A stretch of DNA of 64,000 nt from Pseudobdellovibrionaceae bacterium (GTDB taxonomy: Bacteria > Bdellovibrionota > Bdellovibrionia > Bdellovibrionales > Bdellovibrionaceae): positions 1-64,000 of the forward strand of contig JAKFYD010000001.1 in the NCBI GenBank assembly GCA_021731025.1. The letters are read 5' to 3'. The notes beneath the pieces were generated by a model that was given only the letters and a program-made list of their open reading frames with translations, searched no databases and was not told where the DNA came from. A program made the translations under genes and the position numbers. Shown here piece by piece: positions 37,103 through 48,214 of this stretch. The first letter of the stretch is position 1, and each line of letters begins with the position of its first letter.

Positions 37103-38086
37103 TTAGTAAGAATCTTTGGATTTAGCTTTCCAAGGATTTTCGGCGGCTGATTTGTCAGCTTCTTTGTCTTTTTTCTTTTCTTTTTTCTCGGGCTTAGCTT
37201 CGGCTTTATGAGCCTCTGCTTTTTTCTCTTCAGGTTTAGCAGCAGGAGTAGCGGCTCCACCGTCTTTTTTCTCTTCGGATTCTTTATCCTTTTTTCTTTT
37301 CTTTTTCTTTTCTTTTTTTTCGCCGTCATCTTCAGAAGAAATTTTGCGAGAAGGGGATTCGGATTGGATCAGTTGCGCCATCATCGGACCAACGTCGTCT
37401 GAAAATTCAACTTTTCCGGAAGCCATATTGTAAACGCCTTGAACCAAAACAACTTCTTTCTTCTTTAAACGCTCGAAGATGATTTTTGATTCTTTCACCA
37501 AATGTTTTGCCACAGCAAAGACATTGGCTTTCACCGCAGAATGCAAAGTGCGATCAGATTCAGACACTTTCCTGAATTTTTCGATTCCAGGGCGAATAAA
37601 ACTTAATGTCTTATCCAAGTGAGGCGAACCCGCAGATTTTCCAGCAGGTACATCGTAAGCGGCGCGAACCGCATCACAACTGTCATGCCCCATCACGACG
37701 ATCAGTTTTGAACCCAAGTGGGCGACCGCGTGTTCAACGCTAGCAATTGCACTTGAGTCTAAAACTTCACCGGTTAAACGGATGGAATAAAGTTGACCAA
37801 AGCCTTGGTCAAAAATGTATTCCGGTGGAACTCGTGAGTCAGAACAAGAAATGACCACCGAGTGGGGAGACTGATTGTTCACCAACTGAGTTCGATAATC
37901 TTTTTTTGAATTGCTGTACTCGGACTTTTCCGAATAGAAGCGTTCGTTTCCTTTTTTGAGTAGGGCAAAGGCATCATTTCCTGACACTTTGCTTTCAGCC
38001 GCAGAAGCGATTGAAGTGAAACAAAAGCTCAATGTTATGGCCGAAGCCAAACAAGCTCTTCCTATCCCTTGGTTGTTTATTTTCAC
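37103..38086 (-). CDS. periplasmic beta-class carbonic anhydrase with Lys/Glu-rich tail
   Basis: 327 residues. GTG 38086 has AGGGGG upstream and opens a signal peptide (ASAITLSFCFTSIASAAES). The beta-carbonic anhydrase core (~residues 35-225) keeps the zinc site: Cys in VISCSDSRVPPEY and His/Cys in VVMGHDSCDAV. The last ~85 residues are a low-complexity tail dominated by Lys, Glu and Ala. Beta-CAs interconvert CO2 and bicarbonate. Only 9 bp separate it from cheW and then the MCP gene, suggesting one transcript. The tail function is unknown. Confidence 0.88.
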   Translation of the reverse strand: MKINNQGIGRACLASAITLSFCFTSIASAAESKVSGNDAFALLKKGNERFYSEKSEYSNSKKDYRTQLVNNQSPHSVVISCSDSRVPPEYIFDQGFGQLYSIRLTGEVLDSSAIASVEHAVAHLGSKLIVVMGHDSCDAVRAAYDVPAGKSAGSPHLDKTLSFIRPGIEKFRKVSESDRTLHSAVKANVFAVAKHLVKESKIIFERLKKKEVVLVQGVYNMASGKVEFSDDVGPMMAQLIQSESPSRKISSEDDGEKKEKKKKRKKDKESEEKKDGGAATPAAKPEEKKAEAHKAEAKPEKKEKKKDKEADKSAAENPWKAKSKDSY

Positions 38087-38095
38087 AAATCCCCC

Positions 38096-38596
38096 TTATG
38101 CTGCATGTTTTTCTGGAAGAGTTGCCAACTCGGCCAGTTGTGTATTTGAAAGAGCTTTAACGATATCGATTAAAATAATAACTGTATTTTCAAGTTTACC
38201 CATTCCTAAGACAAATTCAGTTTCCGCAGAATTTCCTAGATTAGGGGTTGGCTCGATTTGATTGGAAACCAACTCAATCACTCCACGAACGGAATCAACG
38301 ATCATCCCAACTTGTCCAACCACAGTTTCAATAACGATGATGCATGTTTCTTTGGTGTGTTGGGTTTGTTGAAAACCCAGCTTCGTTCGCAGATTAACAA
38401 CGGGGATCACTTTGCCACGTAAATTCATAACGCCGGCAACAAAGTGCGGCGTTTTGGGAACAGGAGTAATTTCACTGAGTCGGTTAATTTCACGAACGGT
38501 TCCAATCGGGACTCCGTAAAGCTGACTGTTCAGCACGAAGGTCAAATATTGTCCTGGTTTTGCAGTTTTTAATTCTGGTGTCGATGTTGCTGACAT
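38096..38596 (-). CDS. cheW: CheW chemotaxis coupling protein
   Basis: A 166-residue single-domain CheW: FVLNSQLYGVPIGTVREINR, VAGVMNLRGKVIPVVNLRTK and VGMIVDSVRGVIEL are hallmark segments. It links the chemoreceptor to the kinase CheA. AGGAG lies about 11 nt upstream of ATG. It sits 21 bp downstream of the MCP gene and 9 bp upstream of the carbonic anhydrase gene. Confidence 0.95.
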   Translation of the reverse strand: MSATSTPELKTAKPGQYLTFVLNSQLYGVPIGTVREINRLSEITPVPKTPHFVAGVMNLRGKVIPVVNLRTKLGFQQTQHTKETCIIVIETVVGQVGMIVDSVRGVIELVSNQIEPTPNLGNSAETEFVLGMGKLENTVIILIDIVKALSNTQLAELATLPEKHAA

Positions 38597-38617: not shown

Positions 38618-40294
38618 TTAGAAACCGTCAGTTGTTCCAACTTTGCCCGTAGTCGGAGCATCGTCGTCGAAAGGGATCATGTCTGTTGCCGCGTTGGATT
38701 TCGAGCTAGCTTTGGATGGGCTGGCAGGAGTCGGAGCATAAGATGCGGAAGGCTTCGCCGGAGCCGCTTTCTTAATTGGAACAACATTGTAGCGAGGCTT
38801 TTCTGTTTTCGGAGTCGATTTTGGAGTTACTTTTAAGCTGTTGCTGCCATCGATGACAGAGCTCAACTGAGAAACAAGTCCTTGCAGCTCGACGGCTTGT
38901 GCTGACATTTCTTCAGACGAAGCTGCGGTCTCTTCTGCAGAAGCCGCGTTACGTTGAGTCGCTTGATCAAGTTCATTCATCGCTTTGCTGATTTGTGAAA
39001 TTCCGTTGGATTGCTCGGCACTGGCAGAAGCAATTTCATTGTTCAAATCAGAAACTTTTTTAACTGAAGTAACGATGTTTTTCAAAACTTCACCGCTTTG
39101 ATCAGCAATGCGACTTCCGTTAGAGATTTGTTGAACGCTATCTTTGATCAACACAGTGATATCTTTTGCAGCAGATGCACTTCGTTGAGCCAAGTTACGA
39201 ACGGCTTCCGCAACAACAGCGAAACCTTTACCTTGTTCACCGGCACGAGCAGCCTCAACTGCTGCGTTCAGTGCTAACAAGTTAGTTTGGAAAGCGATAT
39301 CATCGATCACATTAATGATCTCTTCGATTTTTTTAGAACTTTTTGAAATGTCTGTCATTGCGCCTATCAAGTTGCGAATTTCATTTTCACCATCTTCCGC
39401 AGATTTGCGGCTGGCCAATGATAATGAAGACGCTTCTTTGGCGTTATCAGCGTTCAACTTAACCATGCTCGACAATTCTTCCAAGGAAGAAACGGTTTCT
39501 TCCAGCGAACTGGCGGCCTCCGTTGCACCTGAAGATAAGGATTGGCTGGCTGTAGAAAGTTGTTGGCTGGCTGAACTGACCTGGGTTCCTGAATCGGAAA
39601 TACTTTGTGTTACATTGCCCAAAGTCAGTGCTAAACGAGAAGCCATGAAGATGCCTAAGATGAATAATGAAATCGTACATAAAATTCCTGTGATGGAAAG
39701 AATTGTTTGTTCGGCATGAGCGCTAGAGATTTCATTTTCAGCTTCAACTTTAGCCATTTTTAAACGAGCTTCATCCATGTCTGACAAAGCTTTGCCCATA
39801 GGGGCCACAGATTGACGCACTTTTGTCGTGATTAAAGTTTTCCCAGTTTCATCATCTTTGGGTGTGCCCTTAGAAAGGACGCTTAAAGTTTCCCCAACAG
39901 CTTCTTGAAAGCTTCTGTAGTTTTCATCAACAGGGCGAAACATTTCCTTCAATTTTTCAGGGCGAGGAAGTTTATTAAACTCTTCATAGGAAACTCTAAA
40001 AGAGTCTAAATTTTTTCTTGCATTCTCGATGGCGCGAGTTCTTTCCGCCATATTGCCTTCAGCTCCATGGGCTACCCATAACCAACGAATTGTTCCATTG
40101 ATCGATGAATCCATATCGCCGGAAAATTGGGCTAAAGGTAAGCGAACTAAATTTGCGCTTTCTAGGCTTTTCGTTAAATTGCTGATTTGAGTGTAAGACA
40201 CTGCGCTCAAAACCATAATTACAATTGCTGGTAATGACACCAAGAAGAGAAGTTTTCCCCGAATACCCCTAAGCCAGATCGCGAATGAACCCAC
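38618..40294 (-). CDS. methyl-accepting chemotaxis protein, no obvious HAMP domain
   Basis: A 558-residue chemoreceptor. GTG 40294 is preferred because GGAGG lies 3-4 nt upstream. Helix 1 ([20 protein letters not shown]) leads to a ~160-residue helical periplasmic domain (MCP four-helix-bundle type), helix 2 ([18 protein letters not shown]), and then directly Ser/Gln-rich signalling helices. The kinase-control tip is present ([20 protein letters not shown], then [19 protein letters not shown]). The usual HAMP pattern after helix 2 is not seen. A Pro/Ser/Ala-rich tail follows. It heads the unit with cheW and the carbonic anhydrase. Confidence 0.92.
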
Positions 40295-40475
40295 GTTGCC
40301 TCCATTTTCATAAGACTGCGAAAGATTTTTTGACTTCAACGTAGATTTTTTCGGAGAAAGTGAAAATTTCTTTAGGGCAGAATTGCGTGTTAAGAAAGAT
40401 TAATAAATTCTCACAAAAACGACGAAGGTCTGGTCGGTTATTATGTTCCAGCCCTATTTAAATTGAAATTAAGCC

Positions 40476-40556: not shown

Positions 40557-41450
40557 ATGAGTGCAGCTAAACAATTCTCTCCTAATCATTTTTCTGATTC
40601 ACAAAACTTTTTGGATAAACTTCAAAAAGACGAGCAAGGTTTTTTGAAACTTTCCACCATCTTAAAAAAGAATGCTGGCATCAATATGGTGTTGAACGAT
40701 AAAAACCTGACCTTAATGGCAAGTCGTTTGAACTCTTTATTGAAGGGTCTTCAGATCTCAGATTATAAACAGTATGCCGAGCTCCTTGATAAACCAAACT
40801 CAAAATATTTAGCTGATTTCATTGTAGCTTTGACGACGAACACAACGCAGTTTTTCAGAGAGCCATCTCATTTTAAATTCATGACTGAAAAGCTGGGCGA
40901 AATTTTTGCGCGTAAAGAAAAACAAAAAAACTATGACCTGCGTATTTGGTGTTCAGCGACCAGCACCGGCCAAGAAGTTTTCACCATCATGATGACTATT
41001 CTGAATCATCCTTTAATGTCGAAAAAATGGAATATTAAATTTTTAGCAACAGACATTGACTATGAAGTTCTGCAAAAAGCATCAAATGGTATCTATCAAG
41101 AGAGCGAAATGCAGGGAGTCCCTGATCACTGCCTTCAAAAATACTGCAATGTTTTCAAAGAAAAAGATGGAAAGAAATATCAGTTTAAAGATGAAATTCG
41201 TGAATCCATACGTTTTGCCACTTTTAATTTGTTAACAGACAAATATCCGTTCAAACATCCCTTCGATATCGTTTTCTGTCGAAATGTTTTGATTTATTTC
41301 GATCGTCCTACGGCAGAAGGCGTGATTGAAAAATTGGCACAAACTTTGGTTAAAGACGGCTTTTTGTTTTTAGGGCACTCAGAAACAGGAATGATGAAAA
41401 CAAAACTTTTAAAAACAGTCTCCAACGCGGCTTACACTAAAATAGGGTAA
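40557..41450 (+). CDS. cheR: CheR chemoreceptor methyltransferase
   Basis: A 297-residue SAM-dependent methyltransferase that methylates receptor glutamates. The N-terminal helical domain is followed by the SAM fold: RIWCSATSTGQEVFTI (motif I; Gln where GE is common), FLATDIDYEVLQKA, and FDIVFCRNVLIYFDRP. The last is the CheR hallmark. First gene of the rightward chemosensory unit, 12 bp before the CheA gene. Confidence 0.93.
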   Translation: MSAAKQFSPNHFSDSQNFLDKLQKDEQGFLKLSTILKKNAGINMVLNDKNLTLMASRLNSLLKGLQISDYKQYAELLDKPNSKYLADFIVALTTNTTQFFREPSHFKFMTEKLGEIFARKEKQKNYDLRIWCSATSTGQEVFTIMMTILNHPLMSKKWNIKFLATDIDYEVLQKASNGIYQESEMQGVPDHCLQKYCNVFKEKDGKKYQFKDEIRESIRFATFNLLTDKYPFKHPFDIVFCRNVLIYFDRPTAEGVIEKLAQTLVKDGFLFLGHSETGMMKTKLLKTVSNAAYTKIG

Positions 41451-41462
41451 TTGAGGTAGAGA

Positions 41463-43595
41463 ATGAGTAAAGACTATAGCAAATTTACAGAACCAGTTCT
41501 CATCGTTGATGATGAAGAAGGTATACGCAGCGACCTTAAATACTTGGCGGATAGCCTTGGTTTAAAATCAATCCTTGCGCCAGATGCTCAGACGGCTTTG
41601 GAATACATTAAGGACAATCCTTGCCTTATTATTTCAGACTTCCGCATGCCAGGAATGGATGGGGTGCAGTTCTGTGTCGAGGTTCGAAAAGTGCGATTGG
41701 ATATTCCTTTCCTCTTGCTGTCAGGATTTGTTGATAAAGATGTCGCTATTGCGGGTTTGCAATCGGGTGTGTCAGACGTCGTTGAAAAACCTTACGATCA
41801 TAACGTTCTTAAAAAACACATTGAAAAATTCGTTGATGCACGCATCACATATTTGGCGGCTGAAGAAAAAGAGATGGATGAAATCTTGATGTTGTTTGTC
41901 GAAGAGGCAACAACATTGCTTGAGGATCTTGAAAAACATATTCTTCGTTTAGAAGAAGAGGTCTTAGATCCTGCCGTTGTCGATTTGCTCTTCCGCGCAG
42001 TTCATTCAGTGAAGGGTGGCGCGGGCGCAATTCCGAATGGAAAATGGCTTGCGATGCTGGGACACTCTTTTGAATCTTGCCTATCCATGATTAAGAACGG
42101 TCAGTTAAAACTTGATGGCGACGGCATGGAAGTCTTTCTTCTAAGCTCGGACCTGTGTCAAAAGCTGATTCGACTGATTAAAGTTAAAGCCGAGCCTTCA
42201 GCAGAGTTAGCACAAACGATCGACACTTGCATTCAGTCTCTGGAGGCATTGAAGTCAGGGCAATCCAAGACTGCAACTTCAGCAGCTCCGGCGGCCAGCG
42301 CTGTTGTCAAAACAGATGCGACCGAGAAAAAAGATTCATCTCCCGAAAATGATGGCGTTTGGGTATCGAATGAAAAATTAGATTCCTTCATGAAGCTTTC
42401 CGGAGAGCTCATTGTTTTAAAAAACTATTTCCACGTTTTAAATCACGAGCCCGAGATGAGAAATCTATCGACACGGGTCACAACAAAAAATACAGATTTT
42501 TCGTATTCATTGAATAAAATCACCGACACTTTGCAAGAGCAAATCATGTCGATTCGTAAAGTGACTCTGGAAAGAGCACTCAGCAAGTTGCCGCGCATTT
42601 TCAGGCAGGTGACGAAAGAAGTGAATAAAAAAGTTAAATTAGAAACCGAAGGCTTTGAGCTTGGTGTTGATCGCACTATCGCCAATGCCTTAAGCACCTG
42701 TATGACTCATATGTTACGAAATGCCATCGATCACGGTATTGAAAAGGCTGAAGTTCGCGAGGCCGGTGGCAAACCTGCAGAAGGAACCATTAAGATAGTC
42801 ACTAAAGAAGAAAAAGGCATGATCTATTTAACCATCATTGATGACGGTGGTGGTATTGACCGTGAAAGAGTTATTTCTAAAGCGATCGAAAAAGGTTTGA
42901 TTGAAGAAAGTAAGCGCACGGGGCTTACTGATGAAGAAGCTTTTGATTTAATTTTCTTACCTGGATTTTCGACTGCAGAGAAAGTCACGGGAATTTCTGG
43001 TCGCGGTGTTGGTATGGACGTCGTTAAATCTGAAATTTTAAATCTCAAAGGAAAAGTAAGAATTCAATCCAAGTTAACTGTGGGAACAACTTTCAAGATT
43101 GAAGTTCCTGTTCCGAAGACAGTGATGGTTGAACAAACGGTTTTGGTTAAATCAGGGGAAACTTTAATTGCGGTTCCACTGAACGCCATCGCCCAGTTAA
43201 CTTCAAATGCCAAATTGACAACTTCAACGGTGGGTTTTCAGAAGACTTGCCAGTTTCAAGGCAGAACGGTGCCTTTGAAAACATTTATTGAAATCTCTGA
43301 ACAGATCAGCAGCGGTGACGAAGTGGTCAAAAGAAAACTTTCAACTGAAAACACAGATACGGCTTCCATTGTTATTCTTCAACACAAGAGCGAATACATG
43401 GGGCTTATGGTTGATAGTATCCATGATCAACTCGAGGCTGTTATTCGCCCATTTGATAAAGTGACCAATTCTTTCCCAGGGTTTAAGGGAACGACAGTTT
43501 TAGGAGATGACAGCATCGCCTACGTCGTGGCCCCGGAAGAATTTGTGATTTTAGGTTTAGGTCTCAACAAAGATAAAACGGTCGAGGCCGCTTAA
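41463..43595 (+). CDS. cheA: CheA-type kinase with N-terminal receiver (REC-HPt-P3-P4-P5)
   Basis: 710 residues. Receiver (~8-125; acidic pocket VDDEE, phospho-Asp59 in IISDFRMPG, Lys109 in EKPYD); HPt/P1 (~136-245; phospho-His181 in AVHSVKGGAGAIP); linker without a clear P2; dimerisation P3 (~295-360); HATPase P4 with N-box HMLRNAIDHGIE, G1 DDGGGID, GFSTAE and G2 GRGVGMDVVKS; and a C-terminal CheW-like P5. The N-terminal receiver is unusual and would let the kinase sense or sink phosphate in cis. Motifs look catalytically intact. Confidence 0.93.
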   Translation: MSKDYSKFTEPVLIVDDEEGIRSDLKYLADSLGLKSILAPDAQTALEYIKDNPCLIISDFRMPGMDGVQFCVEVRKVRLDIPFLLLSGFVDKDVAIAGLQSGVSDVVEKPYDHNVLKKHIEKFVDARITYLAAEEKEMDEILMLFVEEATTLLEDLEKHILRLEEEVLDPAVVDLLFRAVHSVKGGAGAIPNGKWLAMLGHSFESCLSMIKNGQLKLDGDGMEVFLLSSDLCQKLIRLIKVKAEPSAELAQTIDTCIQSLEALKSGQSKTATSAAPAASAVVKTDATEKKDSSPENDGVWVSNEKLDSFMKLSGELIVLKNYFHVLNHEPEMRNLSTRVTTKNTDFSYSLNKITDTLQEQIMSIRKVTLERALSKLPRIFRQVTKEVNKKVKLETEGFELGVDRTIANALSTCMTHMLRNAIDHGIEKAEVREAGGKPAEGTIKIVTKEEKGMIYLTIIDDGGGIDRERVISKAIEKGLIEESKRTGLTDEEAFDLIFLPGFSTAEKVTGISGRGVGMDVVKSEILNLKGKVRIQSKLTVGTTFKIEVPVPKTVMVEQTVLVKSGETLIAVPLNAIAQLTSNAKLTTSTVGFQKTCQFQGRTVPLKTFIEISEQISSGDEVVKRKLSTENTDTASIVILQHKSEYMGLMVDSIHDQLEAVIRPFDKVTNSFPGFKGTTVLGDDSIAYVVAPEEFVILGLGLNKDKTVEAA

Positions 43596-43605
43596 CGGAG
43601 CAAGC

Positions 43606-44940
43606 ATGAATCAAAGTGACAACGATTTTTTAAGAGAATTACAAGAAGCTTGTTTGAAAGAAGTCGATGATTATTTAAACGACTTTCGAGAAGTTCTTTG
43701 TGTCTTTAAAGATGACATAACCAAGGGAGTTGAACAGATTCAAAAAGTCATTCACTCCATGAAGGGCAATTTGCAAGCGGTGGGCTTTCTGCATTTTGGA
43801 AATTATGTTCATGAACTGGAATCCATTCTTGATCGGAAAACCAAAGAAGCAACGGCGCCGGAAGGAAAAGCACTTCCTGATTTTGAAGTCTTAGTTTTTG
43901 AATATTTGTTATCGAGTATCCTTGAAGGAATGGGAAGTTATGTCAATGAGCTGAAAGCGCTCTATCTTGATTCCGAAGAATTAGCGGCTGCGCGCCGAGA
44001 GCAACTCAGCGGTCTCGAGAAATGGGAACCTAAATTTGATGCGGGTGATATTCCTTTATTCACACCGGCAGAAAATTTGGTTTATGTTCAGCCCGATATC
44101 GACTCTTTGTTGTCTGCACCTAATGTTATCGCCCTCGTACCGAAGTCCAATGAAAATAAAAAAATCATCGAGCTCGAGATGCCTGATACTGGAGGATTTG
44201 AAATGAAAGATCAAAACATAGATATCGCCGAATTGGCTGCCGAGGCTTCTTCAGCTCCGGCAGAACCTGAAGTTGCAGTTGCAGAAGGCCCTTCCCCAAT
44301 GGAGTTAGCTATGCTTGAACATGAGATCCCTGAACTCAGCGTTGAAATGCCAGCTGAAGTTTCTTTACCGACTCCCGTCGAGGATGTCGCACCGGTAGCT
44401 ACGCCTGTCGCTCTGGAAACAACCTCGATTGAACCTTCTGCATCAGCAGGAAATGGTCAAGGTGGCAGCAGCAACGGGAGTCATGGAAATCCACAGTCGA
44501 AGCCGCCCCAAGAATGGCTTAACTATCGTGGGTCAGGATTATTCCTCCTTTTTCAAAATCATAAAAAATATTTTGCAATTGCCATTGAGCACATTGTGGA
44601 AGTGATCAAGTCACAACCTTTAAGCACTCCTCCGCACAAAAGAAAAAATTTGCGAGGCCTATTAAATCTTCGCGGCGAAGTTTTACCCATTTTAAATGTT
44701 GATGCGATCACGACAGAAGGTGATCCTAAACCGACCTACGTCGTTGTTTCCCAAGTGGATGACCTGAGATTCGGTTTCCAAGTCGAATCGGTTCATCAAG
44801 TTGTGACTTTGGATCCAAAAGTATTTCAAAGTGTTGACGGCCTCTCGGAGGACAATGGAACGGGGATTGTAACTCATTTCTGCCAAACCGAAGACAAAAC
44901 CATTTCCATATTAAAACTTAATGAATTGGTTGCGGCATGA
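43606..44940 (+). CDS. HPt-CheW fusion protein
   Basis: 444 residues. An N-terminal HPt domain (~1-115) keeps phospho-His50 in KVIHSMKGNLQAVG. An acidic, Ala/Pro/Glu-rich linker (~165-300) leads to a C-terminal CheW domain (~310-440; YFAIAIEHIVEVIKSQPLST, LRGLLNLRGEVLPILNVDA). There is no kinase domain. It could dock to the array through CheW and accept phosphate from another kinase via its HPt. GGAG lies 6 nt before the ATG. The end overlaps the next start (ATGA). Confidence 0.9.
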   Translation: MNQSDNDFLRELQEACLKEVDDYLNDFREVLCVFKDDITKGVEQIQKVIHSMKGNLQAVGFLHFGNYVHELESILDRKTKEATAPEGKALPDFEVLVFEYLLSSILEGMGSYVNELKALYLDSEELAAARREQLSGLEKWEPKFDAGDIPLFTPAENLVYVQPDIDSLLSAPNVIALVPKSNENKKIIELEMPDTGGFEMKDQNIDIAELAAEASSAPAEPEVAVAEGPSPMELAMLEHEIPELSVEMPAEVSLPTPVEDVAPVATPVALETTSIEPSASAGNGQGGSSNGSHGNPQSKPPQEWLNYRGSGLFLLFQNHKKYFAIAIEHIVEVIKSQPLSTPPHKRKNLRGLLNLRGEVLPILNVDAITTEGDPKPTYVVVSQVDDLRFGFQVESVHQVVTLDPKVFQSVDGLSEDNGTGIVTHFCQTEDKTISILKLNELVAA

Positions 44941-46502
44941 AGCAAATTTACATCTTTCCAGGGCAGTGGGCTTATTCCAGAGAACCTGCAGAGATTTCAA
45001 CCATTCTTGGTTCTTGTGTTGGCGTTGCCCTGTTTGATTACAAATTAAAACGGGGCGCTTTAAATCACTATTTACTTCCAGATCCGATGCCGAATGAAGC
45101 GCCATCAGGACGCTACGGAAGCATCGCGATTCCTGCGATCATCGATGCCATGATTCAAGACGGATCTGATAAAAGATCCCTTCAAGCAAAAATTTTCGGT
45201 GGTGGCAGTGTTCTTACTGGCGTCACTATTGGTGATGGAATCGGTAATCGCAATATCGAGCTCGCCCGTAAAATGTTGGGTGATCTGGGGATTCCCGTGC
45301 ATGAAGAAAACGTCGGCGGACTTAGGGGACGACGAATTTGTTTAAATACACAAACCTTTGAGGTCGTTCATAAGCTTCAAGGCAATGATAAAGAAGTTGT
45401 GGATATTACTGGTCTAGGTTTGTTTGATATGAAAAAAACGGTTCGCGTCGTTATCGTTGATGACTCGGCAACAGTGCGTAGTCTTTTTCAAAAGATTTTT
45501 ACGAAACACGGTATTGAAGTTGTTGGAACGGCAGCGAATCCCTACGAAGCCCGAGATATTATTGTTAAGACAAAACCCGATGCCATCACCTTGGATCTTG
45601 AAATGCCGAAGATGAATGGCGTCGTCTTTTTAGAAAAATTAATGAAGCATATGCCGACACCAGTGGTGGTGGTTTCCTCTTTGGGAAGTCAAGGGGCTGC
45701 GGCATTACGGACTTTAGAGCTCGGCGCTGTCGAGTTTATTCATAAGCCTTCTCAATTTGATCCCGCTGTTCTTCGACAGTTGGGTGAAATGCTGGTCGAG
45801 AAAGTGAAAGCGGCAGCTTCAGTGGATGTTGTTCGGGAAAGTCGTAAAAGAAATGCGGCGGCTGCATTAAAGCCCGCTTCCCCAGCGACTCAATCTTCAA
45901 GCTCTTTAAAGCCTCAAGCTGAACTCAAAACTTTACTGATTGGTGGCAATGCAGGATCAACAGAAAGTTTGCGGGTCTTACTTGAAAGTTTACCTGCCGA
46001 TACTCCTCCTGTGGTGATTGCAAATGCCACGATTGTTTCCTTTTTAGAAAATTATCTTGAAAAACTAAGACGTCGAGTGAAGTTGACCTTAACTGTGGCT
46101 AAGCAGGGAGACATTTTGAAAATGGGAAATGTTTATTTTGCGCCACAGGATATGCAAACTCGTATTGTTAATGCAGCGGCAGGATTGACGATTGATCTTA
46201 AGAAAGAAGCTCCTGTCTGTGGTCAAATGCCGTCAAGCAATGTTCTTTTTGAATCCGCAGCCAGCAGCGGGGGAGCAGGAACTATGGCTGTTCTCCTTGG
46301 CGGTTTCGGTGCCGACGGTGTCGAAGGTCTGCAAAAAATTCGCGCTGCTGGTGGCGTCACTTATGTGGAAGATCCAACAGAAGCGGCATTTCCACATGCT
46401 CCCCAAAAAGCGATCAGCTTGGGGATTGTTGATCAAGTCCTGAAAGCCACTGATATGTCTGATGCTATTACAGACTTACGTAACAAAAGGGTTGCTGCAT
46501 GA
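44937..46502 (+). CDS. CheD-CheB fusion: CheD deamidase, receiver and catalytically degenerate methylesterase domain
   Basis: 521 residues. Residues 1-160 are CheD with its catalytic set intact: STILGSCVGVALFD (Thr22, Cys27) and GALNHYLLP (His44). Residues ~168-290 are a receiver (VDDSATVRS, phospho-Asp220 in ITLDLEMPKMNG, Lys270). After a Ser/Ala linker, residues ~330-515 align with the CheB methylesterase, but the catalytic Ser is Asn338 (IGGNAGSTESL against the usual GASTGGTEAL) and the His is Ala364 (VVIANAT against VIVQHMP); only the Asp460 region (GFGADG) remains. The frame is open and coupled to both neighbours, so it is probably a working CheD with a regulatory, non-catalytic CheB module. 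Confidence 0.9.
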   Translation: MKQIYIFPGQWAYSREPAEISTILGSCVGVALFDYKLKRGALNHYLLPDPMPNEAPSGRYGSIAIPAIIDAMIQDGSDKRSLQAKIFGGGSVLTGVTIGDGIGNRNIELARKMLGDLGIPVHEENVGGLRGRRICLNTQTFEVVHKLQGNDKEVVDITGLGLFDMKKTVRVVIVDDSATVRSLFQKIFTKHGIEVVGTAANPYEARDIIVKTKPDAITLDLEMPKMNGVVFLEKLMKHMPTPVVVVSSLGSQGAAALRTLELGAVEFIHKPSQFDPAVLRQLGEMLVEKVKAAASVDVVRESRKRNAAAALKPASPATQSSSSLKPQAELKTLLIGGNAGSTESLRVLLESLPADTPPVVIANATIVSFLENYLEKLRRRVKLTLTVAKQGDILKMGNVYFAPQDMQTRIVNAAAGLTIDLKKEAPVCGQMPSSNVLFESAASSGGAGTMAVLLGGFGADGVEGLQKIRAAGGVTYVEDPTEAAFPHAPQKAISLGIVDQVLKATDMSDAITDLRNKRVAA

Positions 46503-47557
46503 GCAAAAAAATACGCGTCCTTATCGTTGATGACTCTTCAGTCATTCGCACCATGCTGACAAAGGTACTTTCCGACGATCCTGGAATTGAAGTCGTCGGA
46601 ATAGCCCCAGATCCTTATTTTGCTCGAGAAAAATTAGTGGCGCTTAAGCCTGATGTTATGACTTTGGATATTGAGATGCCAAAGATGGATGGAATTACTT
46701 TTTTAACAAAGGTGATGCAACATCATCCGGTGCGAACCATCGTCTTTAGCAGCTTGTCGACAAGAAATTCGGTTATGGCTTTGAAAGCAATGGAGGCCGG
46801 TGCGATTGACGTTATGGCCAAACCGGCTATTGATGTGACCAAAGGCCTTTCTTCTTTAGCTGCAGAAATTGTTGCGAAAGTTAAAATGGTTGCACGAGCA
46901 AATCTTTTAACTAGAAAAGTTCCTCCTCCTGATGCTGTTAAATCTAAGCTGGATATTTCAGCTTTGCAAAAGACAACTCACCAAATATTAGCGATTGCAT
47001 CGTCCACGGGAGGCACTGAAGCGCTTAAAGAAGTTTTGCCTTTTTTACCCGAGGATCTTCCTGGAACTGTGATCGTTCAGCATATGCCACCGGTATTTAC
47101 GAAAACTTATGCCGAATGTTTAAATAGAATGTGTCCCTTTGAAGTGAAAGAAGCGGAAGATGGGGATCGTGTTATTCCCGGAAGAGTGCTGTTGGCACCG
47201 GGTGATTATCATATGGAGCTGGCCCGCAGTGGAGCCAAATACTATGTCAAACTTCACCAGCAACCGTTAATTCATGGAGTTCGTCCTGCCGCTGATTATC
47301 TGATGAAATCTGTTGCTCAGTACGCGGGAGCCAACGCCATTGGCCTGATCCTGACGGGTATGGGTAAGGATGGTGCTGAGGGTTTGTTAGCTATGAAGAA
47401 TGCCGGAAGTTACAATGTGGCTCAGAGTGAAGAGACTTGCATTGTTTTTGGAATGCCAAAAGCGGCGATCGACATCAATGCCGTCCACCGCGTTTTACCC
47501 TTAGAGAAAATTGCTGCGGATCTCATTACCCAAATCAGAAACCGCGCCGTGGCTTGA
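46499..47557 (+). CDS. cheB: CheB protein-glutamate methylesterase/glutaminase
   Basis: 352 residues. N-terminal receiver (VDDSSVIRT, phospho-Asp57 in TLDIEMPKMDG, Lys108 in AKPAI) and C-terminal methylesterase with the full triad: Ser169 in IASSTGGTEAL, His195 in IVQHMPP and Asp291 in GMGKDGAEG. It demethylates and deamidates chemoreceptors. ATGA overlap with the CheD-CheB fusion. Its last 57 bp overlap the 3' end of the convergent CheR-like gene. Confidence 0.95.
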   Translation: MSKKIRVLIVDDSSVIRTMLTKVLSDDPGIEVVGIAPDPYFAREKLVALKPDVMTLDIEMPKMDGITFLTKVMQHHPVRTIVFSSLSTRNSVMALKAMEAGAIDVMAKPAIDVTKGLSSLAAEIVAKVKMVARANLLTRKVPPPDAVKSKLDISALQKTTHQILAIASSTGGTEALKEVLPFLPEDLPGTVIVQHMPPVFTKTYAECLNRMCPFEVKEAEDGDRVIPGRVLLAPGDYHMELARSGAKYYVKLHQQPLIHGVRPAADYLMKSVAQYAGANAIGLILTGMGKDGAEGLLAMKNAGSYNVAQSEETCIVFGMPKAAIDINAVHRVLPLEKIAADLITQIRNRAVA

Positions 47558-48214
47558 TGTTGCATCATAATTTTTAGTCAGTACGCCATGTCCCGATTGG
47601 GACCAAGAGCGTCGGAAGAAAAATTCCTGCATGTTTGGATTAACAATCAAAGCCGAATTGTTGTAGAGACATTTCTCGAGACGGGCGTGGAAACTTTTTT
47701 TAGCGACATCTATATTTTTAATTTTATCAGCATAAACAATATCAAATTTATATTTGAACGGCCACTCGGGATCGCTGAGGTTAACATTGGCGAATCGTAC
47801 CTTTTTAGCTAGGGGAGAAGCTGTCAGTTTTTCCAGGCGCTCGCTGTCGTGATCCGTCACAATCATTTTTAAATGAGCTCCGGCTTTCAGAGCCACTTGT
47901 TCCACTAAACGAACATAGGATTCAAAATCTTGGACACTTTGAATGTTGGCTCCCCAAACCCGAAGTTCTTTCTCGTTGATGCTAAAATTGAGGCTCAATA
48001 AATAAAAATAAATGTTGTCCCAATATTGGACTCGGGGATCAAATTTTATCTTCATTGGATTTGATTTGAGCCTTTGCAAACGGAGTCGAGAGATCAAAAG
48101 CACAAGAGACGAAGTCAAAATAAGGGCTGCAGCCCAGTTTTGATCAAAGGGACGTGTTAAAAAACCTAAGCCGAATGAAGTTGCAATGGCGATCAATAAA
48201 TAATTTTTTTTCAT
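47501..48214 (-). CDS. membrane-anchored, degenerate CheR-like protein
   Basis: 237 residues: two N-terminal hydrophobic segments (~5-20 and 28-42), then a soluble domain. Several stretches line up in order with the CheR encoded at 40557: ELRVWGANIQSVQDFESYV against DLRIWCSATSTGQEVFTIM; LKMIVTDHDSERLEKL against IKFLATDIDYEVLQKA; VRFANVNLSDPEWPFKYKFDIVYADKI against the region ending FDIVFCRNVLIYFD. The SAM-binding motif and the RNVLIYF hallmark are lost. The similarity is by eye. It converges on cheB with a 57-bp overlap. I suggest a non-catalytic scaffold; an unrelated methyltransferase fold is the alternative. Confidence 0.65.
   Translation of the reverse strand: MKKNYLLIAIATSFGLGFLTRPFDQNWAAALILTSSLVLLISRLRLQRLKSNPMKIKFDPRVQYWDNIYFYLLSLNFSINEKELRVWGANIQSVQDFESYVRLVEQVALKAGAHLKMIVTDHDSERLEKLTASPLAKKVRFANVNLSDPEWPFKYKFDIVYADKIKNIDVAKKSFHARLEKCLYNNSALIVNPNMQEFFFRRSWSQSGHGVLTKNYDATSSHGAVSDLGNEIRSNFL

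Follow-up and report, generated by a model that had tools for sequence, protein, structure and literature searches.

A putative CheB pseudoenzyme fused to CheD and a receiver domain is conserved in Bdellovibrionota

In Bacillus subtilis, CheC responds to CheY-P by removing CheD from the receptors to which CheD binds, and this binding of CheD is more important than its deamidation (PMC3513319). The methylesterase of CheB is stimulated when its receiver is phosphorylated (PMC7698151). Here, we describe a gene that joins CheD, a receiver (REC) and a CheB-type domain in one chain. It shares the deamidase Thr, Cys and His and the fold of T. maritima CheD (2f9z; PF03975), from which it differs by the addition of a C-terminal REC and pseudo-CheB. 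With canonical CheB (Salmonella 1a2o; PF01339 and PF00072) it has in common a REC, a methylesterase-fold domain, the Asp of the catalytic triad and the fold itself, whereas Ser is changed to Asn, His to Ala, Ser or Thr and the Met of TGMG to Phe, and the dead domain forms a separate clade and is joined behind CheD. Active CheD-REC-CheB fusions that also occur in Bdellovibrionota resemble it in domain order and length, but their triad is intact and they fall in separate clades of both the CheB and the CheD trees.

The fusion gene lies in a window of 64,000 nucleotides, the whole stretch of DNA analysed here, from a Pseudobdellovibrionaceae bacterium (GCA_021731025.1, contig JAKFYD010000001.1). 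The operon runs in the order CheR, REC-Hpt-CheA, Hpt-CheW, fusion and CheB, with CheW and a methyl-accepting chemotaxis protein (MCP) on the other strand:

38096..38596, minus strand: CheW (Pfam)
38618..40339, minus strand: MCP (Pfam)
40557..41450, plus strand: CheR methyltransferase (Pfam)
41463..43595, plus strand: REC-Hpt-CheA kinase (Pfam)
43606..44940, plus strand: Hpt-CheW coupling protein (Pfam), overlapping the fusion start at 44937 in the ATGA manner
44937..46502, plus strand: CheD-REC-pseudoCheB fusion gene, 521 aa (ORF call and Pfam)
44937..45386, plus strand: CheD deamidase domain, residues 1-150 (Pfam PF03975; TM 0.87 to 2f9z_C)
45438..45806, plus strand: receiver domain (PF00072), residues 168-290 (Pfam; TM 0.90 to 3t8y)
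45816..45926, plus strand: variable linker, residues 294-330 (dN/dS about 0.16 in genus Bdellovibrio)
45927..46499, plus strand: putative pseudo-methylesterase of CheB fold, residues 331-521 (alignment to CheB; predicted structure)
46499..47557, plus strand: intact CheB (REC-methylesterase) with S169, H195 and D291, overlapping the fusion by ATGA

The MCP is a plausible substrate and has a Gln-Gln site in the methylation-type motif SASQQLST. Several other features of the neighbourhood were observed. The Hpt-CheW protein of the window carries an Hpt-type His motif (VIHSMKGN) that is also present in G015 and is absent in G140 and genus Bdellovibrio, where the gene encodes a 254-aa CheW-like chain. 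CheA of the window has an N-terminal receiver, while its orthologues in genus Bdellovibrio (about 576-588 aa) gave no receiver match. A 237-aa ORF (47501-48214, minus strand) without a Pfam match lies opposite cheB, whose 3' end it overlaps, and a 327-aa protein encoded at 37103-38086 (minus strand), when read by eye, has a secretion-type N-terminus, a carbonic-anhydrase-like sequence and a tail very rich in Lys and Glu. Elsewhere in the same genome, two more CheB domains (G000:C4:76386-76907 and G000:C27:15295-15825) lie in unusually long open frames of 1628 and 1898 aa, and a CheX-CheY gene pair is found just beyond the end of the window (G000:C14, about 65.1-66.1 kb; L240).

A preliminary description of the window had proposed a CheD-receiver-CheB fusion with CheD residues Thr22, Cys27 and His44, a complete receiver, Asn338 and Ala364 in place of the catalytic Ser and His with Asp460 kept, and a full CheB as the next gene, and Pfam searches, alignments and residue invariance bore out each of these points. 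All three domains were detected in the fusion (CheD 1.5e-23, Response_reg 2.1e-24, CheB_methylest 4.7e-36). The CheD part, to which T. maritima CheD aligned at 6.7e-20, has the Cys and His of a deamidase within a CheD fold (C27 at 45015 and H44 at 45066, together with T22 at 45000), and looks intact. The receiver, with its acidic pair (D175, D176), phospho-Asp (D220, at 45594), Ser (S247) and Lys (K270), likewise looks intact. Alignment of the CheB part to Salmonella CheB (1a2o; 1chd at 5.5e-23) placed N338 (45948) at the catalytic Ser and A364 (46026) at the His, leaving D460 (46314) as the sole residue of the Ser-His-Asp triad; further changes in the old active site replaced the neighbouring Thr by A339 and the TGMG Met by F457. 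By this triad loss, the domain is predicted to be a catalytically dead CheB. Scored with the NCBIfam CheB model PRK00742, the fusion reached 257 bits, below the curated cut-off of 293, compared to 418.6 for the downstream CheB.

Structure models agreed with a retained CheB fold. The full-length AlphaFold2 model had a mean pLDDT of 89.5 and a pTM of 0.50, and within it the dead domain superposed on CheB methylesterase domains with TM-scores of 0.89 (1chd) and 0.94 (3sft) and an rmsd of 1.7-1.8; CheD and REC matched 2f9z and 3t8y at 0.87 and 0.90. The arrangement of the domains was not fixed in this model (pTM 0.50), and REC plus the dead domain differed from CheB by an rmsd of 10. A separate model of REC-pseudoCheB (pTM 0.74) aligned to whole CheB with TM-scores of 0.75-0.82 and an rmsd of 4.5-5.5, a predicted pose that is roughly CheB-like but for which the canonical CheBs dominating the alignment could be responsible.

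Homologues of the fusion were present in 21 of 24 genomes of genus Bdellovibrio, in further genera and families of the same order, and in one genome of another class. The resulting 28 pseudo-domains span several families and two classes of Bdellovibrionota. Asn occupied the Ser site and the Asp was kept in all 28, while the His site held Ser, Ala or Thr and never His (0/28); in comparison CheBs, Ser, His and Asp were retained in 59/59, and the Thr, Gly-Gly and Met were likewise invariant. Because Asn is found in every homologue and Ser in every comparison CheB, Asn338 is not a chance substitution. The proposal that the domain is dead withstood the observations that would have spoken against it: no member of the family has Ser at the first or His at the second of these two sites, the alignment of pseudo-domain homologues revealed no conserved replacement nucleophile, and the modelled domain adopts the CheB fold. 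In 12 diverse full-length members, all three Pfam domains were detected, and T22, C27 and H44 of CheD, D175, D176, D220, S247 and K270 of REC, and N338, F457 and D460 of the dead domain were invariant (12/12). Among 16 diverse pseudo-domains, residues fixed or nearly fixed only in this type were N338, F457, P480, F485, Q430, P358 and V360. In a scan of genome contigs that covered at least 80 loci, the matches listed from outside Bdellovibrionota had cheD and cheB as genes of their own or CheB by itself, and none of these was a fusion. A CheD-REC-dead-CheB protein was not described in the literature searched, chiefly non-subscription journals, and the joining of CheD to a receiver and a conserved dead CheB appears to be previously undescribed.

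In genus Bdellovibrio, median dN/dS was lowest in REC (0.012), followed by CheD (0.037), the dead domain (0.046) and the linker (0.157), with dS above 1 in many pairs; in the least diverged pair, dead-domain dN/dS was 0.028 at a dS of 0.26. The pseudo-domains formed a single clade (100/100) apart from canonical CheBs and from the active CheD-REC-CheB fusions. Judged by sequence, the domain is a maintained pseudoenzyme under strong purifying selection, because it forms one clade, evolves under such selection and has fixed residues of its own. The CheD parts of the active fusions also fell outside the clade holding the pseudo-fused CheDs (96/89). Since both parts of the active fusions thus lie outside the pseudo-fusion clades, fusion of CheD with a CheB-type chain probably took place on two or more occasions. 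Fusions with an intact triad were observed at L041, L069, L072, L074, L075, L109, L111, L112 and L136-L144, mostly in CheA-CheW-MCP-CheR operons, and REC was missing from the active-type CheD/CheB fusions at L070, L073 and L108. We rejected the idea that the dead domain arose recently from the neighbouring CheB by tandem duplication, as the dead-domain clade lies away from the neighbour CheBs in a tree whose long branches mean that clade placement does not fix the deep origin.

The partners of the fusion differed in how closely they accompany it. Canonical CheB is adjacent or overlapping in the window, G015, G097, G098, G092 and G273, but in genus Bdellovibrio, G013 and G140 it belongs to a cheA-cheR-cheB locus elsewhere; CheBs of both kinds formed one clade (100/94). 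It accompanies the pseudo-CheB in nearly all genomes, the draft genomes G065 and G071 giving no match. An orthologue of the linked CheA was, among the genomes tested, restricted to those with the pseudo-CheB fusion, where matches had 38-73% identity at 1e-113 or better. In G060 and G064 of genus Bdellovibrio, the flanking genes are the same, and the locus has a lone CheD of 154-155 aa with cheA, the cheW-type gene and REC-pseudoCheB all absent; in G032, G029, G035 and G006 of a related genus, a lone CheD of the same clade occurs without linked cheA or cheW. No leftover REC-pseudoCheB was found beside the lone CheD genes, and no orthologue of the linked CheA anywhere in these six genomes, in which the best CheA matches had 28-32% identity at 1e-54 or weaker, or were absent at 1e-40. 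All six kept canonical CheB. Therefore, REC-pseudoCheB follows the linked CheA and not CheB. This link is suggestive rather than statistical, because the tree implies about three lineages of co-loss, and the co-loss could reflect loss of the entire pathway instead of a direct link to CheA. G273 departs from the pattern, with a non-orthologous, less related CheA beside the fusion locus. G098 agrees with it in lacking both the kinase and the REC of the fusion, and has a lone 174-aa receiver that resembles the N-terminus of the linked CheA (L107 3202-3726). The fusion of G098 is a CheD-pseudoCheB without REC (L107 5755-6894), followed by intact CheB; as the dead domain survives there without REC, phosphorylation is not its only role.

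In the reading that we favour, at a probability of roughly one half, CheD is governed in cis by the receiver and the dead CheB domain, under the linked CheA. The linked CheA, with which the module co-occurs, would phosphorylate the fused receiver at D220, which may alter the packing of the receiver on the CheB-fold domain as in ordinary CheB. Once exposed, the CheB-fold domain would bind the methylation helices of receptors without hydrolysis, and the receptor-bound dead domain would gate the access of CheD, as a docking arm or a brake. The outcome would be a kinase-dependent feedback on CheD akin to the Bacillus CheC/CheD/CheY-P loop (PMC3513319), with the regulator placed in the CheD chain. 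Both loops would have phosphorylation-dependent control of CheD in common, but the regulator proposed here would act in cis and derive from CheB. No CheC partner was found for CheD in the genome of the window, in which the sole PF04509 match was the CheX just past the window (PF13690, 69 bits). The persistence of a lone CheD without the kinase agrees with a control unit specific to CheA, attached to a CheD that can otherwise work by itself. A brake or receptor-docking arm was among the functions suggested in the preliminary description, and gains indirect support from the absence of the module where the linked CheA is absent; the partnership with CheB suggested alongside fared less well, as follows.

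The idea that the dead domain forms a heterodimer with the adjacent CheB, or serves it as a scaffold, draws on the overlap or adjacency of the two genes in the window and the five genomes named above, but it is disfavoured and quite improbable given that canonical CheB sits at a distant locus in genus Bdellovibrio and at another locus in G013 and G140, and is kept in genomes without the pseudo-CheB. Less probable again is a new catalytic activity through other residues: the former active-site motifs contain several newly fixed residues, and the His site is occupied by Ser in many homologues, yet the window protein has Asn363-Ala364 where Bdellovibrio has Cys-Ser, and thus no conserved replacement nucleophile. 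We give very little credence to a decaying relic of a formerly active CheD-REC-CheB fusion. Such active fusions do exist in the same phylum; however, low dN/dS on the dead domain led us to reject pseudogene decay, Asn is fixed across classes, and descent from the active fusions is unsupported, with their CheB and CheD parts both grouping elsewhere.

Two further explanations are unlikely to a similar degree, and both stand above those just considered. The receiver might act as a phosphate sink that drains the linked CheA, with the dead CheB as a structural platform only and CheD as a passive partner. This would agree with the receiver being the most conserved part of the protein and with the absence of the module where the linked CheA is absent, but a mere platform sits poorly with a dead domain that is under purifying selection with invariant residues of its own and that outlives the receiver in G098. 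Alternatively, the dead domain might be a decoy or protector that competes with intact CheB for methylated or amidated sites on receptors and keeps it away from them. A retained CheB fold, a pocket whose sequence is remodelled yet conserved, and the canonical CheB alongside in nearly all genomes speak for this, whereas the drafts G065 and G071 have no canonical CheB match, and the link to CheA rather than CheB is left unexplained.

Overall, control of CheD in cis under the linked CheA remains our preferred reading. More tentatively, and with the odds somewhat against it, the fusion may represent a phylum-specific device in which a CheB pseudoenzyme serves as a phosphorylation-gated reader of modification sites on receptors, steering the fused CheD, so that a switch within one molecule replaces control by CheC and CheY-P. 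Pseudoenzymes are well known among kinases; among the receptor-modifying enzymes of chemotaxis, we found none in the literature searched. The fusion occurs in genus Bdellovibrio, whose genetic tractability allows a direct test of the idea. Predatory Bdellovibrionota use chemotaxis for finding prey, and a CheB pseudoenzyme fixed across them and joined to CheD suggests that they close the adaptation loop in a different way.
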